The translations under genes and the position numbers were made by a program. Under the pieces are notes generated by a model. It had not been told where the DNA came from. It did not search any database and saw only the letters and a list, made by a program, of their open reading frames with translations. Below are positions 49,109-64,000 of a stretch of DNA of 64,000 nt, piece by piece; position 1 is the first letter of the stretch; the number at the start of each line of letters is the position of its first letter. The DNA lies in contig ONLL01000007.1 in the NCBI GenBank assembly GCA_900318685.1, positions 62,001-126,000 of the forward strand, given 5' to 3'. Origin of the DNA: an uncultured Prevotellaceae bacterium. Lineage in GTDB: Bacteria; Bacteroidota; Bacteroidia; Bacteroidales; Bacteroidaceae.

Positions 49109-52100
49109 ATGAAGACAAAGACTTTTCTAATAGTTATCCTCCTGGCACTGATGATGCCAGTTGGAGCGTGGGCAGGAACCGTGCAGTATACTGACCCTAC
49201 GAGTGGAATAATGTATAATATTCGAACCAATTCGGATAATACTCCTGAATGTGCTGTTGTGACGGGGTGGACTAATCCTAAAAGTACCTCACATTCTATG
49301 CCGCTTTCTGGCTCTGTGTCGCTCAACATTCCTGCTACGCTTACCTCAAAGTCAACCATTATTCCCATCATCGGCGTCGAGTCGGTATCTTTTAGAGGAG
49401 AAGGTAACGGTAACGATTATTTAAAGAGCGTAGTCGTTGGCGAAAACGTCACCACCATACAAGATAATGCTTTTGCCAACTGCGCCTATTTGAAAAACGT
49501 CACCATCACTACGACTGTAGAATCGATAGGCTCTAATGCGTTCCTTTATTGTGGCACCGCAAACGGTAGCACCGACTATGTCACTATGATCATTGAGAAA
49601 GGCTCGCGCACTAATGTTTACCAGAATCTTTTATACGCGCAGAGCTATGTCAAGAACATCGTGGTAAAAAGCGGCATTACTACCATCAGCTTTTCAGCAT
49701 TTGGAAACATGCAGCGCCTGGAAAACGTTACCCTGCCGTCATCGCTCAAAACCATCGGAGAGAGTGCTTTCCAATCGAATAGAGCTTTGACAAGTATCGG
49801 CATTCCTGAGGGCGTACAGACCATCCATCAGTATGCTTTTGCAGACTGCAGCGCGCTGTCATCTGTTACGCTGCCTTCGACGCTGAAGACCATCTACGCT
49901 TATGCCTTCCAGAATTGCGCTGCCCTGACGGAGGTGGATATCCCCAGGAGCGTCACCACGCTGGGCGATCGTGCTTTCGACTGCGCAAACCTCACCCAAG
50001 TCAAGGTTAACTGGTACACGCCGCTTCAAATCACCGGCGATGCCGACCCCTTCCCGCAAAAAGCAACAGAAGGCCACTCGCTGATTGCTCCTTTCGCCTT
50101 GGATCAGTACTATGTTAACGATGCGTACTGGGGTCAGTTCAAATCCATTGAGCCGACTCCCACCTATGTTAACGACACAGGCCTTGTCTATGGCTGGGTA
50201 GGCGACGGTACCACCCACGTGAAGGTCGTTGGCTGGCAGGGATGGACCAACCCGACGTCAGTGCTCATTGAGCCCAAGCTGTACGTTGGCGACCCGCAGA
50301 ATAATGAGAATCTGGTATTCGACGTCACGGAGATAGGCGACGAAGCCTTGAAGGACTGCACTTTGTTGCAAGATATTACCATCCCCGCTTCAGTGACAAA
50401 GATTGGCGAATCTGCCTTCCAGGGATCCGGTTTGTATTCTATCACCCTCAATGAGGGCCTGCAGCAGATAGGATTAAATGCGTTCAACGGATGCTCTAGT
50501 TTGCAGACCGTTAACGTCCCCTCGTCGGTGACAGAGTTAGGAGCAGGAGCCTTTTCCACTTGCGAAGCCTTACAGACCGCAATCATCCAAGCGCAGATAA
50601 CTCGTCTCCTCAACCAGACATTCCAGCATTGCAGTAGCCTGACGTCTGTCTCCCTGCCCTCCACGCTGAAAGAGATCAATTACTTAGCCTTCTTTAACTG
50701 TACAAGCCTGCCGAGCATCGCTATTCCAGAAAATGTTAACATCATCGGCTCAGCCGCCTTCAGAAACTGCACAAGCCTGAAGGATGTGTACTTCCAGGGA
50801 GCAACGCCCCCAGACGTTGATTTGGAAGGTCAAGGTGACCTGTTCCGCAATGAAAACGGCGATGGCGTGATTGACCACAGCACCATCACCCTCCATGTGC
50901 CCTTCGGAGCGACGGAAGCCTACAGCAACCACGACTATTGGAAGACGTTCCATATCCTGTTGCCCTCGGAGATCAATATCGACTTTGCCGATGATGCAGT
51001 AAAGGCTGTCTGCGTTGGTGAGCAGACGCGATGGGACACCAATGGCGATGGCGAGCTGAGTCTTGCAGAGGCTGCTGCAGTGACGGACCTCTATAGTTTC
51101 TTTAATCATACATCCATCACCTCGTTTGACGAGCTGAAGTACTTCGTTGGTCTGACAACGATTGGTGATGCCGCATTCAATGGGTGTTCTGCACTAACGA
51201 AGGTCACCATCCCCGAAGGAGTGACCACCATTGGCTCTTCAGCCTTCGCTTTTTGCTCTGTCCTGAGCGAGGTGAGCATGCCGTCGACGCTGCGAACTAT
51301 CGGCTATAGCGCCTTCGATAATACTGGGTTGGCCGACGTGACCATTCCAGAGGGAGTGACCTCAATAGAGAACAGTGCCTTCGAGGAGTTAACAGGCCAT
51401 GTGACGTTGCCTTCAACATTGGTGTCTATTGGCAACTGGGCATTCACGAATGCCACCAGCGTCACAGTCAGCTGGGCTACTCCGCCCGCCGAAAGTAGTG
51501 TGAACAGTCCTTTCGGATGGAATCTTTACAATAAAACGCTCTATGTCCCCTTCGGCAGGCGAGAGACATACAAAGCCGATTCATACTGGGGAGGTTTCGG
51601 TACGATCAAGGAGTACGGCAACATTCCGTTTGCTGACGATAACGTGAAGGCCATCTGCGTCGCATCCGAGACGGGGTGGGATACCAATGGCGACGGTGAG
51701 TTGAGCGTGGCTGAGGCAGAAGCTGTTACCAGCATTGGTCAGGCCTTTGGTGCAAAAGCCATCACCTCTTTCGACGAGCTGAAGTACTTCACGGGCATCA
51801 CGACGATTGACGACAAAGCCTTCCATGCCTGCAGCAGCCTTGTGTCGGTCACCCTCCCTAAGAACGTGACCTCCATTGGGATGAATGCTTTCGGAAGTTG
51901 CACCGCTCTGGCAGCAATAGTAATACCTCAGGGCGTGACCACAATCAGCAACTCTGCCTTCGCCAACTGTACAAGTCTTAATAGCGTCGAGCTGCCTTGG
52001 ACGCTGGAGACCATTGGCTCGGATGCTTTCTATGGCACCACAGCCTTGGAACGTATCACCATCCCCTCGTCCGTTACATCCATGAATGATGCTTTCAATG

Positions 52101-62974: not shown

Positions 62975-64000
62975 ATGAAAAAGTTATTTTTTACACTAGT
63001 GCTAAGTGTCATCTGTGGGATGGCTTCCGCACAGACAGTTTCAATTTCCGACATAGAGATAAAAGCTGGCGAAAAAGCTGCATTCACAATTGTGGTAAAT
63101 GTGGGTGATAATGAGTTTTCCGGAATAGAGTTCACGAATATGGTTTTGCCTACAGGACTGACAGTTGTTGGTACTGCTGTTAGTGAAAGTTGGGATGCTT
63201 CTGCGAACAACGACTATAATGTGGATACCGACAAAACTGTATTAGGCGCTTTTACATCTTTGAAAGATATCACTATTCCTAAAAATCAGGATTTTGCGAT
63301 TGGTTCAATTGAATTGGAGGCAGCAAGTAATCTAACTGTGGATGATGTCCTTACGGTAACAATCCCTAAAGGCAAATTTAAATTCGTTCCAGGAAGTGTT
63401 GCTGTTGACAAGGATATTACTTTCAATGTGAAAGTTTCCAATTACATTACGTTAGATGAGAATTCCGTGGCTCTTCCCAAAGGCAACGCCACCGCTAGTG
63501 ACGTTAAAGTTTTGCGCACACTTAAAGCTGGGGAGTGGAGTACAATTTGCTTGCCTTTTGAGCTCACAGCTGACGAACGAACAGAATTGTTCGGAAGTCA
63601 CAAATTAGCATCAATAAATGGTTACACATTAGAGAAGGAAGACGGTAAAATTACGGGAATAAAGGTTCTCTTTAAAAATGTATCAGGTAAATTAACGAAG
63701 AACCGCCCATATATTATCAATGTTGATGAGGCTAAGAGTTTCTTTATTGCCAAGAGTAAAATTGTTGATGCCAAAGAAGTAACTTATACACCTACTGATG
63801 ATGATGATGAGGATCTTCCCACTTCAATGATTGGTTGTATGAAAGCTGGTACAGTTGTTCCTGCTAATAGCCTATTCCTCAGTGACGGTAAGTTCTGGTA
63901 TTCTGTAGGTAAAACTAAGATGAAGGCCTTCCGTGCATATTTTACTTTCGAGGATGTACTTTCTTCTATTGCTGACGCTTCCTCACGTATTAAGTTCTTT
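62975..64000 (+). CDS. Secreted protein with N-terminal cohesin-like domain, 3' truncated by the window end
   Basis: An open frame of 342 codons runs from ATG 62975 to the last base. Signal peptide: MKKLFFTLVLSVICGMASA. Residues ~20-165 have a cohesin-like outline: VSISDIEIKAGEKAAFTIVV (the common I-AG-x-V opening of cohesins), NEFSGIEFTNMVLPTGLTVV, a middle strand region and DVLTVTIPKGKFKFVPGSV. Residues ~170-340 (TLKAGEWSTICLPFELTADE, NRPYIINVDEAKSF) are a beta domain frequent in Prevotella BspA-like proteins, whose role is unknown to me. An acidic stretch (DDDDEDL) lies near residue 272. Codon use is strongly AT-rich compared with the enzymes upstream. Whether a dockerin or a tail follows cannot be seen. 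It is cotranscribed with the preceding gene. Confidence 0.8.
   Translation, partial: MKKLFFTLVLSVICGMASAQTVSISDIEIKAGEKAAFTIVVNVGDNEFSGIEFTNMVLPTGLTVVGTAVSESWDASANNDYNVDTDKTVLGAFTSLKDITIPKNQDFAIGSIELEAASNLTVDDVLTVTIPKGKFKFVPGSVAVDKDITFNVKVSNYITLDENSVALPKGNATASDVKVLRTLKAGEWSTICLPFELTADERTELFGSHKLASINGYTLEKEDGKITGIKVLFKNVSGKLTKNRPYIINVDEAKSFFIAKSKIVDAKEVTYTPTDDDDEDLPTSMIGCMKAGTVVPANSLFLSDGKFWYSVGKTKMKAFRAYFTFEDVLSSIADASSRIKFF

Follow-up and report, generated by a model that had tools for sequence, protein, structure and literature searches.

Dockerins have already been described in rumen Bacteroidetes, where their role was termed "not defined yet" (PMC7480376); among camel-rumen Bacteroidetes bins, 11 dockerins without cohesin stand beside one bin with both (PMC6071333), a Prevotellaceae genome was listed with a two-cohesin protein (PMC5830445), and another survey saw cohesins solely in Firmicutes_A (PMC9177762), all in the excerpts of these papers on which we draw. 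Excerpts of several other reports provide further context (PMC6118326, PMC9763041, PMC10266427, PMC9012536). Here we analyze a locus of an uncultured Prevotellaceae bacterium (assembly GCA_900318685.1) at the 3′ end of a stretch of 64,000 nucleotides (hereafter, the window; positions 62,001 to 126,000 of contig ONLL01000007.1, C15:62001-126000), in which three large leucine-rich repeat (LRR) proteins ending in dockerins are followed by two small proteins; like the other open reading frames (ORFs) of the window, they are denoted by their start positions, 62304 and 62975. We consider it probable, on the strength of sequence comparisons, that this locus encodes a noncellulosomal cohesin-dockerin surface scaffold, with the LRR-dockerin proteins as clients, 62304 as an adaptor and 62975 as an anchor. 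The first-pass annotation of the window had suggested that the locus holds both partner types and encodes, in place of a cellulosome, a surface scaffold made of LRR proteins; we find this view correct in outline, subject to the corrections given below.

Domains of the two small proteins

The two small genes and their parts are as follows.

62304..62960, forward strand: cohesin-dockerin protein of 218 residues with a signal peptide, presumed adaptor (Pfam Dockerin_1, family profile)
62373..62771, forward strand: cohesin-family domain of 62304, residues 24-156 (60.7 bits, E 3e-18, with a profile that includes neither window protein)
62781..62942, forward strand: dockerin of 62304, residues 160-213, with TTE / TTD at positions 9-11 and Lys 18 in both repeats (Dockerin_1, 32.1 bits; sequence)
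62975..64000, forward strand: cohesin-X-tail protein, presumed anchor, 390 residues in full, with its stop at 64147, outside the window (ORF and genome sequence)
63035..63436, forward strand: divergent cohesin-family domain of 62975, residues 21-154, weak if judged alone (profiles)
63452..64000, forward strand: X region of 62975, about residues 160-345, which leads, past the end of the window, into a short tail carrying type IX signal motifs B, D, and E (sequence, relatives)

All five ORFs of the locus, LRR genes and small genes alike, were confirmed at their stated coordinates; 62975 overruns the window by 147 bp, and the C-terminal end of the full-length protein is YYNLNGLRVETPSKGIYIKDGKKVVVK.

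Both small proteins had been predicted to be cohesin-like, a prediction that is borne out by family profiles and not by the Pfam cohesin model (PF00963), which gives no score for 62304 or 62975; the terminal dockerin of 62304 had been overlooked. Since 62304 carries a dockerin detected by PF00404, it is a cohesin plus dockerin protein, and the notion that both small proteins are cohesins only was dropped. Genome-wide, PF00963 matches four places, two of them above its cut-off and all on contig C21, to which 62304 shows 28-41% identity; three of these alignments extend into the dockerin, among them those with the two places above the cut-off (28-34%), and the 41% match (C21:81784, below the Pfam cut-off) is cohesin-only.

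A profile of nine cohesin-family domains from this genome, both window proteins included, recovers 12 places in the genome when matches up to E 1 are counted and 11 at E<=1e-5, and its best match in the PDB is a chain of a cellulosomal scaffoldin (5n5p, E 2.5e-8). With both window proteins excluded, the resulting seven-member profile matches, among the fetched ORFs, 62304 at E 3e-18 and 62975 at E 3e-4. When eight 62975-type domains, that of 62975 among them, are combined into a profile, seven PDB chains match at E<=1, namely two scaffoldins, sortase-anchored ScaE, two cell-wall-anchoring proteins and two chains of NagJ, a cohesin-like module; only the match to 5n5p is significant (E 1e-4), with the other four at 0.03-0.24 (ScaE, 2zf9, 0.2) and the NagJ chains at 0.46 and 0.62. 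The 62975-type and 62304-type profiles align with 97% probability, and half of the sequences in the 62975-type alignment (4 of 8, without 62975 itself) are matched by PF00963 at E<=1, the best of them at 6e-7. Single-sequence searches of the PDB returned weak dockerins and no cohesin for 62304 and nothing useful for 62975, and an NCBIfam scan of the small proteins provided no useful name. Fold aside, the significant profile match to 5n5p supports cohesin homology in the wider sense. As judged from these profiles, the first domain of 62304 belongs to a Prevotella cohesin family of which 62975 carries a divergent member.

Gene order, co-occurrence and co-variation

The genes 62304 and 62975 are separated by 14 bp. 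Across the interval from 58744 to 62975, a terminator scan found none and a promoter scan found 4 promoter-like sites against 2.6 expected. The host genome is a 3.96 Mb draft that is 87% complete. The nearest named relative of 62304 (77% identity) comes from a Prevotella metagenome-assembled genome (MAG) from roe deer omasum, and three more named matches are from MAGs of Prevotellaceae or Bacteroidaceae, with water buffalo rumen and yak colon as the sources of two.

When 150 genomes of the genus, including that of the window, were searched with the 62975 alignment, 107 matched at E<=1e-10, many of them in the X-tail part only. To judge from the 30 top-ranking 62975-like loci, each from a different genome and with that of the window among them, the pair is a conserved operon. 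A same-strand dockerin-bearing ORF lies directly upstream in 24 of these loci, with gaps of -20 to 82 bp, and 3 others encode a fused cohesin-dockerin-cohesin-X-tail chain, so that the pair in the window can be viewed as a split form of this module. The exceptions are one locus at a contig edge (L145), one in which no upstream ORF was found (L141), and one whose upstream ORF has no dockerin call (L144). The cohesin-dockerin-cohesin-tail order was also seen among loci retrieved with the cohesin profile. In Archaeoglobus, too, there is a gene pair in which a cohesin-dockerin gene adjoins a cohesin gene. At an orthologous locus (L078), the pair occurs without neighboring upstream dockerin genes, and one dockerin ORF, not scanned for LRRs, lies about 2 kb downstream.

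Among Prevotella genomes (138 on the tree below), gains and losses of cohesin coincide with those of dockerin. With both domains called at E<=1e-5 and up to 40 places scored per genome, the cohesin family is present in 76 of the 150 genomes and dockerins in 75: 69 genomes have both, 68 neither, 7 cohesin only, and 6 dockerin only (one dockerin each). Cohesin is found in all 21 genomes with ten or more dockerins. PF00963 exceeds its cut-off in 36 genomes compared to 76 for the divergent family, and the 42 genomes with PF00963 at E<=1e-3 all belong to those with the cohesin family, dockerin being present in 39. On a tree of the type IX translocon domain SprA_N that comprises 138 genomes (of the other 12 genomes, 7 lack a SprA_N match and 5, with partial or weak matches, were left out), the minimum number of changes is 30 for cohesin and 34 for dockerin. 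Among genomes that differ in cohesin, 20 independent pairs can be drawn, and in these dockerin differs in the same direction in a mean of 16.9 and in the opposite direction in 0.5 (median p 8e-5, range 8e-6 to 0.001). Since the two domains are often part of one protein, the fairest comparison for clients is that of genomes with five or more dockerins, which gives 7.0 same and 0.0 opposite of 12 pairs (median p 0.016, range 0.002 to 0.06); PF00963 against dockerin gives 11.5 same and 0.9 opposite of 25 pairs (median p 0.003, range 3e-5 to 0.15). A class-wide search of 295 genomes detected the cohesin family in 3, of which one is the genome of the window, the second belongs to its genus and the third to its order, with a profile derived from this genome that may miss distant members.

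With respect to specificity, the published determinants in dockerins are positions 10, 11, 17, 18, and 22 of each repeat, according to the part of the source on which we draw (PMC5748583). We compared the two repeats in the 72 of 131 distinct dockerin hits of the genus in which both are complete, position 22 being outside the profile. Agreement between repeats exceeds that of shuffled sets at positions 9-11, 13-15, 17, and 18 (0/5000 each), is weaker at position 5 (15/5000) and marginal at position 6 (233/5000), and does not exceed shuffles at positions 1-4, 7, 8, 16, 19, and 20. The 38 distinct dockerins located directly behind a cohesin have diverse codes that are frequently identical in both repeats.

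The recognition positions defined by this symmetry, chosen without regard to the cohesin and from a partly overlapping set of dockerins, were then used in Mantel tests on 26 dockerin-anchor pairs (the 27th, L132, was excluded because its second repeat is absent). The recognition positions of the upstream dockerin correlate with the downstream cohesin at r=0.74 (p=0.0002, the floor of 5000 shuffles). The correlation of the other dockerin positions with this cohesin is 0.36, that of the recognition positions with the 150-residue stretch preceding the dockerin in its own chain is 0.14, and that between the downstream cohesin and the X region of the same protein is 0.04. After dereplication to 19 pairs, the four values, in the same order, are 0.41 (p=0.0002), 0.11, 0.07, and -0.09. 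We conclude that the pairing of the 62304 dockerin with the 62975 cohesin is well supported by co-variation. The earlier proposal that the partners in the locus pair with each other holds to this extent, with the qualification that the best-supported pair is this one, rather than an LRR dockerin with either small protein.

Presumed clients and anchor, and competing explanations

The presumed clients and their dockerins occupy most of the locus.

49109..53656, forward strand: giant BspA-type LRR protein of 1515 residues with a signal peptide and C-terminal dockerin, presumed client (LRR_5, E 8e-175; Dockerin_1, 27.6 bits)
53483..53644, forward strand: dockerin of 49109, residues 1459-1512, with a degenerate first calcium loop and DIN / TIA at positions 9-11 (local dockerin profile, sequence)
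53706..58586, forward strand: giant BspA-type LRR protein of 1626 residues with a signal peptide and C-terminal dockerin, presumed client (LRR_5, E 1e-167; Dockerin_1, 31.6 bits)
58413..58568, forward strand: dockerin of 53706, residues 1570-1621, with DIN / TIA at positions 9-11 (local profile, sequence)
58744..62067, forward strand: LRR_4/LRR_5 protein of 1107 residues with a signal peptide and C-terminal dockerin, presumed client (LRR_4, E 3e-23; Dockerin_1, 35.9 bits)
61879..62046, forward strand: dockerin of 58744, residues 1046-1101, with SIA / TIA at positions 9-11 (local profile, sequence)

PF00404 scores 27.6-35.9 bits in four window proteins (49109, 53706, 58744, and 62304), above its cut-off of 22.9 bits, which indicates that the dockerin pattern is more than chance and agrees with the first-pass assignment of dockerins to the ends of the three LRR proteins. 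Asp or Asn occupies loop positions 1, 3, 5, and 12 in both loops of 53706, 58744, and 62304; the motif DxNxDxxIxxxD, as originally quoted for the LRR proteins, is exact in 3 of their 6 loops, whereas Val replaces Ile in the second loop of 53706, and the first loop departs from the motif in 49109 (Ile at position 5) and 53706 (Asn at 1, Asp at 3).

These dockerins are part of a large repertoire. In this genome PF00404 matches 78 places, 45 of them above the cut-off (one of these only jointly with its neighbors), and a local profile built from the strong matches identifies 51 dockerin ORFs in the fetched stretches, covering 44 of the 45 Pfam places (all except C56:14097). Pfam scans of 45 of the 51 ORFs show LRR-type domains (LRR_5, LRR_4, or DUF285) in 20, the carbohydrate-binding domain Cthe_2159 in 2 and a catalytic domain in 4 (an endonuclease I, an M6 peptidase, a PL11 lyase, and a glycosyl hydrolase core). 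The earlier description of the system as lacking enzymes applies to the four dockerin proteins of the window, none of which has a catalytic domain; for the genome as a whole, an enzyme-free system was dropped because of these 4 ORFs. More dockerin ORFs lie downstream of the window, at C15:128054, 129927, 134365, 140192, and 143459; the last of these (C15:143459-148564, L026:8559-13664), about 17 kb 3′ of the end of 62975, encodes an LRR protein that has a dockerin and, in mid-chain (residues 385-516), also a cohesin-family domain. On contigs C21 and C56 (L028, L029, L027), three further small cohesin-dockerin proteins adjoin giant cohesin and dockerin proteins, and thus the arrangement recurs in the genome. 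Half dockerins, with one calcium loop and helix, end several proteins (L032:9860-13816 and 13901-15703, at the start of C15; ORFs on C30, C35, C38, and C44), and in five proteins (L040, L046, two in L036, L037) 93-102 helix-like residues, similar by eye, extend beyond the dockerin. The G+C content is 47-51% at 48001-64000 and 55-60% elsewhere in the window.

As for the anchor, motifs B, D, and E, which the consulted part of a study on Prevotella intermedia describes for short type IX C-terminal domains (CTDs) (PMC11969387), are found, with patterns of our own modeled on that study, in the tails of 28 of the 30 best 62975-like proteins, 62975 included. Given this resemblance to a short type IX signal, 62975 would be expected to leave the cell and to become fixed to its outer surface. 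SprA_N, the sole translocon component for which we searched, is present in this genome (E 2e-210) and in 143 of the 150 genomes. The X-tail part recurs at the C-terminal portion of many larger Prevotella ORFs, and fits a generic surface chassis. Elsewhere in the window, a protein with a tyrosine-phosphatase-type domain (44527-48165; PF13350, E 3e-25) ends in YDLQGRRL...GLYIVNGKK, which resembles the short tail of 62975.

In the scaffold that we propose, the giant LRR proteins ending in dockerins would be the clients; 62304 would act as the adaptor, with its dockerin plugged into the cohesin of 62975 and its own cohesin free for client dockerins; and 62975, which presents one cohesin on the conserved X-tail chassis, would be exported and fixed to the outer surface via its short type IX signal-like tail, so that the scaffold is probably type-IX-anchored. 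The neighborhood of the genes and the different code of 62304's own dockerin lead us to infer the link from client to 62304, that is, that the LRR dockerins may bind the 62304 cohesin. Physical binding, its calcium dependence and surface attachment are likewise predictions from sequence.

Several observations weigh against this scheme. The cohesin of 62975 is weak if judged alone (10.7 bits in the search with the profile that excludes both window proteins), and a profile of four 62304-type domains found no cohesin in the PDB. None of the NCBIfam tail models matches 62975 at E<=1, and a cleavage-site pattern upstream of the tail, a loose one of our own making used without a chance control, occurs in 23 of the 30 relatives and not in 62975. 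The co-occurrence of the two domains is partly built in because they are often in one protein. If the analysis is restricted to the 28 dockerins of this genome, repeat symmetry is only nominal, at positions 10 (40/5000), 13 (1), and 17 (226), uncorrected. The code classes are not clean either: 24 of the 35 client dockerins of this genome have a second repeat with TI at positions 9-10, and the eight cohesin-bearing dockerin ORFs divide into four with client-like TI and four with codes of their own, 62304 among the latter. In the 20 of 26 pairs whose pre-dockerin stretch matches the cohesin profile (E<=1; four below 5 bits), this stretch correlates with the recognition positions at 0.34 and with the downstream cohesin at 0.29, the value for recognition positions and downstream cohesin being 0.68 in the same pairs. 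Recombination could move a dockerin and the neighboring cohesin together. In Ruminococcus flavefaciens, a microarray showed no binding of most LRR-protein dockerins to the cohesins examined, and a table in the consulted part of that study lists some LRR binders (PMC5301203). Finally, most dockerin proteins lack a tail that would account for their exit from the cell.

Conceivably, docking itself serves as export, tail-bearing cohesin proteins carrying tail-less dockerin proteins piggyback from the periplasm through the type IX translocon. This idea, which we hold to be quite doubtful, is motivated by the observation that 39 of the 51 dockerin ORFs stop within 20 residues past the dockerin, 2 bear a tail and none combines a terminal dockerin with a tail, together with the crude Sec signal detectable in 46 of the 49 dockerin ORFs with a visible start. 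A lipobox-like pattern occurs in 2 of these 49, neither of them judged convincing. Should the piggyback route be real, each genome would combine a shared client code with private adaptor-anchor codes, making for a programmable Prevotella surface.

Among the competing explanations, the one that we regard as possible, although we lean against it, is that the LRR dockerins dock elsewhere, either on other cohesins of the genome, which could act as the client receptor, or on the scaffolds of neighboring rumen bacteria such as Ruminococcus. It draws on the 11 cohesin-like domains found in this genome at E<=1e-5 and on the LRR-dockerin proteins known in Ruminococcus, as given in the cited portions of two reports (PMC5301203, PMC7480376). 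Only the version with foreign scaffolds is less compatible with the client codes, which are alike within a genome. In 20 places chosen from the best Pfam hits, with two cassette dockerins set aside, the recognition positions of clients in other genomes are 67% identical within a genome and 27% between genomes (5 and 148 pairs, a small sample), compared to 66 and 64% for the remaining dockerin positions. When the genome studied here is added, which then supplies nearly all within-genome pairs, the recognition positions are 41% identical within (600 pairs) and 28% between genomes (778), and the other positions 49 and 57%.

The adaptor-anchor pairing, for its part, might be apparent only, if the dockerin and the downstream cohesin are DNA neighbors that recombination swaps jointly. 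The two are contiguous, and the X region, with a mean identity of 46% compared to 24% for the downstream cohesin, is a possible crossover site. Linkage alone, however, predicts ties of about equal strength between cohesin and X region and between pre-dockerin domain and dockerin, and those observed are far lower; moreover, the recognition positions outperform the other dockerin positions (0.74 vs. 0.36, and 0.41 vs. 0.11 after dereplication), although the latter vary less and hence carry less signal. We think such joint swapping unlikely to be the explanation.

Distinctly improbable, in our estimate, is the possibility that the dockerin is a calcium-stiffened C-terminal cap with the cohesin-like domain as its structural neighbor, and that no docking between proteins occurs. 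An X module precedes some clostridial dockerins, which offers a parallel for such a structural neighbor; the linkers between cohesin and dockerin are very short in many proteins, and the usual location of the dockerin at the very end of the chain (the 39 of 51 ORFs above) would suit a cap. Yet the recognition positions follow the cohesin of the next gene and hardly the pre-dockerin stretch of their own chain (0.74 vs. 0.14; dereplicated, 0.41 vs. 0.07), repeat symmetry is limited to one set of positions, and a cohesin match within the same protein is lacking in the majority of the dockerin ORFs of this genome. Head-to-tail self-assembly of 62304-type proteins into a filament, with the dockerin of one copy inserted into the cohesin of the next, would be in keeping with one cohesin and one dockerin per chain and is nonetheless hardly credible, because co-variation with the recognition positions is much stronger for the cohesin of the next gene than for the domain that shares their chain.

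Relation to described cohesin-dockerin systems

The scaffold that we favor differs from a cellulosome, understood as a scaffoldin that integrates plant-wall enzymes, in that the dockerin proteins of the window are devoid of catalytic domains. Dockerins in this bacterial group were known before; what would be new is a noncellulosomal adaptor-anchor variant of the scaffold. We found no description of the operon, its tail or its codes in the consulted parts of the open-access literature to which the search was confined, subscription papers lying outside it. The module states which dockerin should bind which cohesin and, as it predicts specific partners, can be tested with small soluble domains. 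If correct, the model would define a Gram-negative, type-IX-anchored counterpart of the cellulosome architecture, used mostly for adhesin-like LRR proteins, and the genus would be a source of many naturally separate cohesin-dockerin pairs.

The comparisons that follow extend to the cited portions of each source. Short type IX CTDs of P. intermedia cargo have motifs B, D, and E, as do the 62975-type proteins; there the cargo bears the tail, whereas here the cohesin carrier does and most dockerin proteins do not (PMC11969387). The dockerin-bearing rumen Bacteroidetes belong to the same bacterial group and likewise combine dockerins with isolated cohesins (RUG606 of Prevotellaceae; camel bin 136), but an adaptor-anchor operon, a type IX tail and a pairing code are not described in those reports (PMC7480376, PMC6071333, PMC5830445). 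The noncellulosomal cohesins and dockerins of archaea similarly occur in organisms not thought to be cellulose degraders (PMC9012536); the system described here differs in its operon with an anchoring tail, in paired specificities that diversify across the genus and in its many LRR clients. The R. flavefaciens cellulosome shares with the proposed scaffold an adaptor (ScaC) whose cohesin widens the range of dockerins bound, a cohesin-bearing surface anchor (ScaE), and LRR proteins with dockerins (PMC5301203). Compared to that system, the Prevotella locus combines a Gram-negative host, a type IX tail rather than a Gram-positive sortase signal, and divergent cohesins with clients that are mostly LRR or unnamed proteins and include few enzymes, and it has no multi-cohesin primary scaffoldin.

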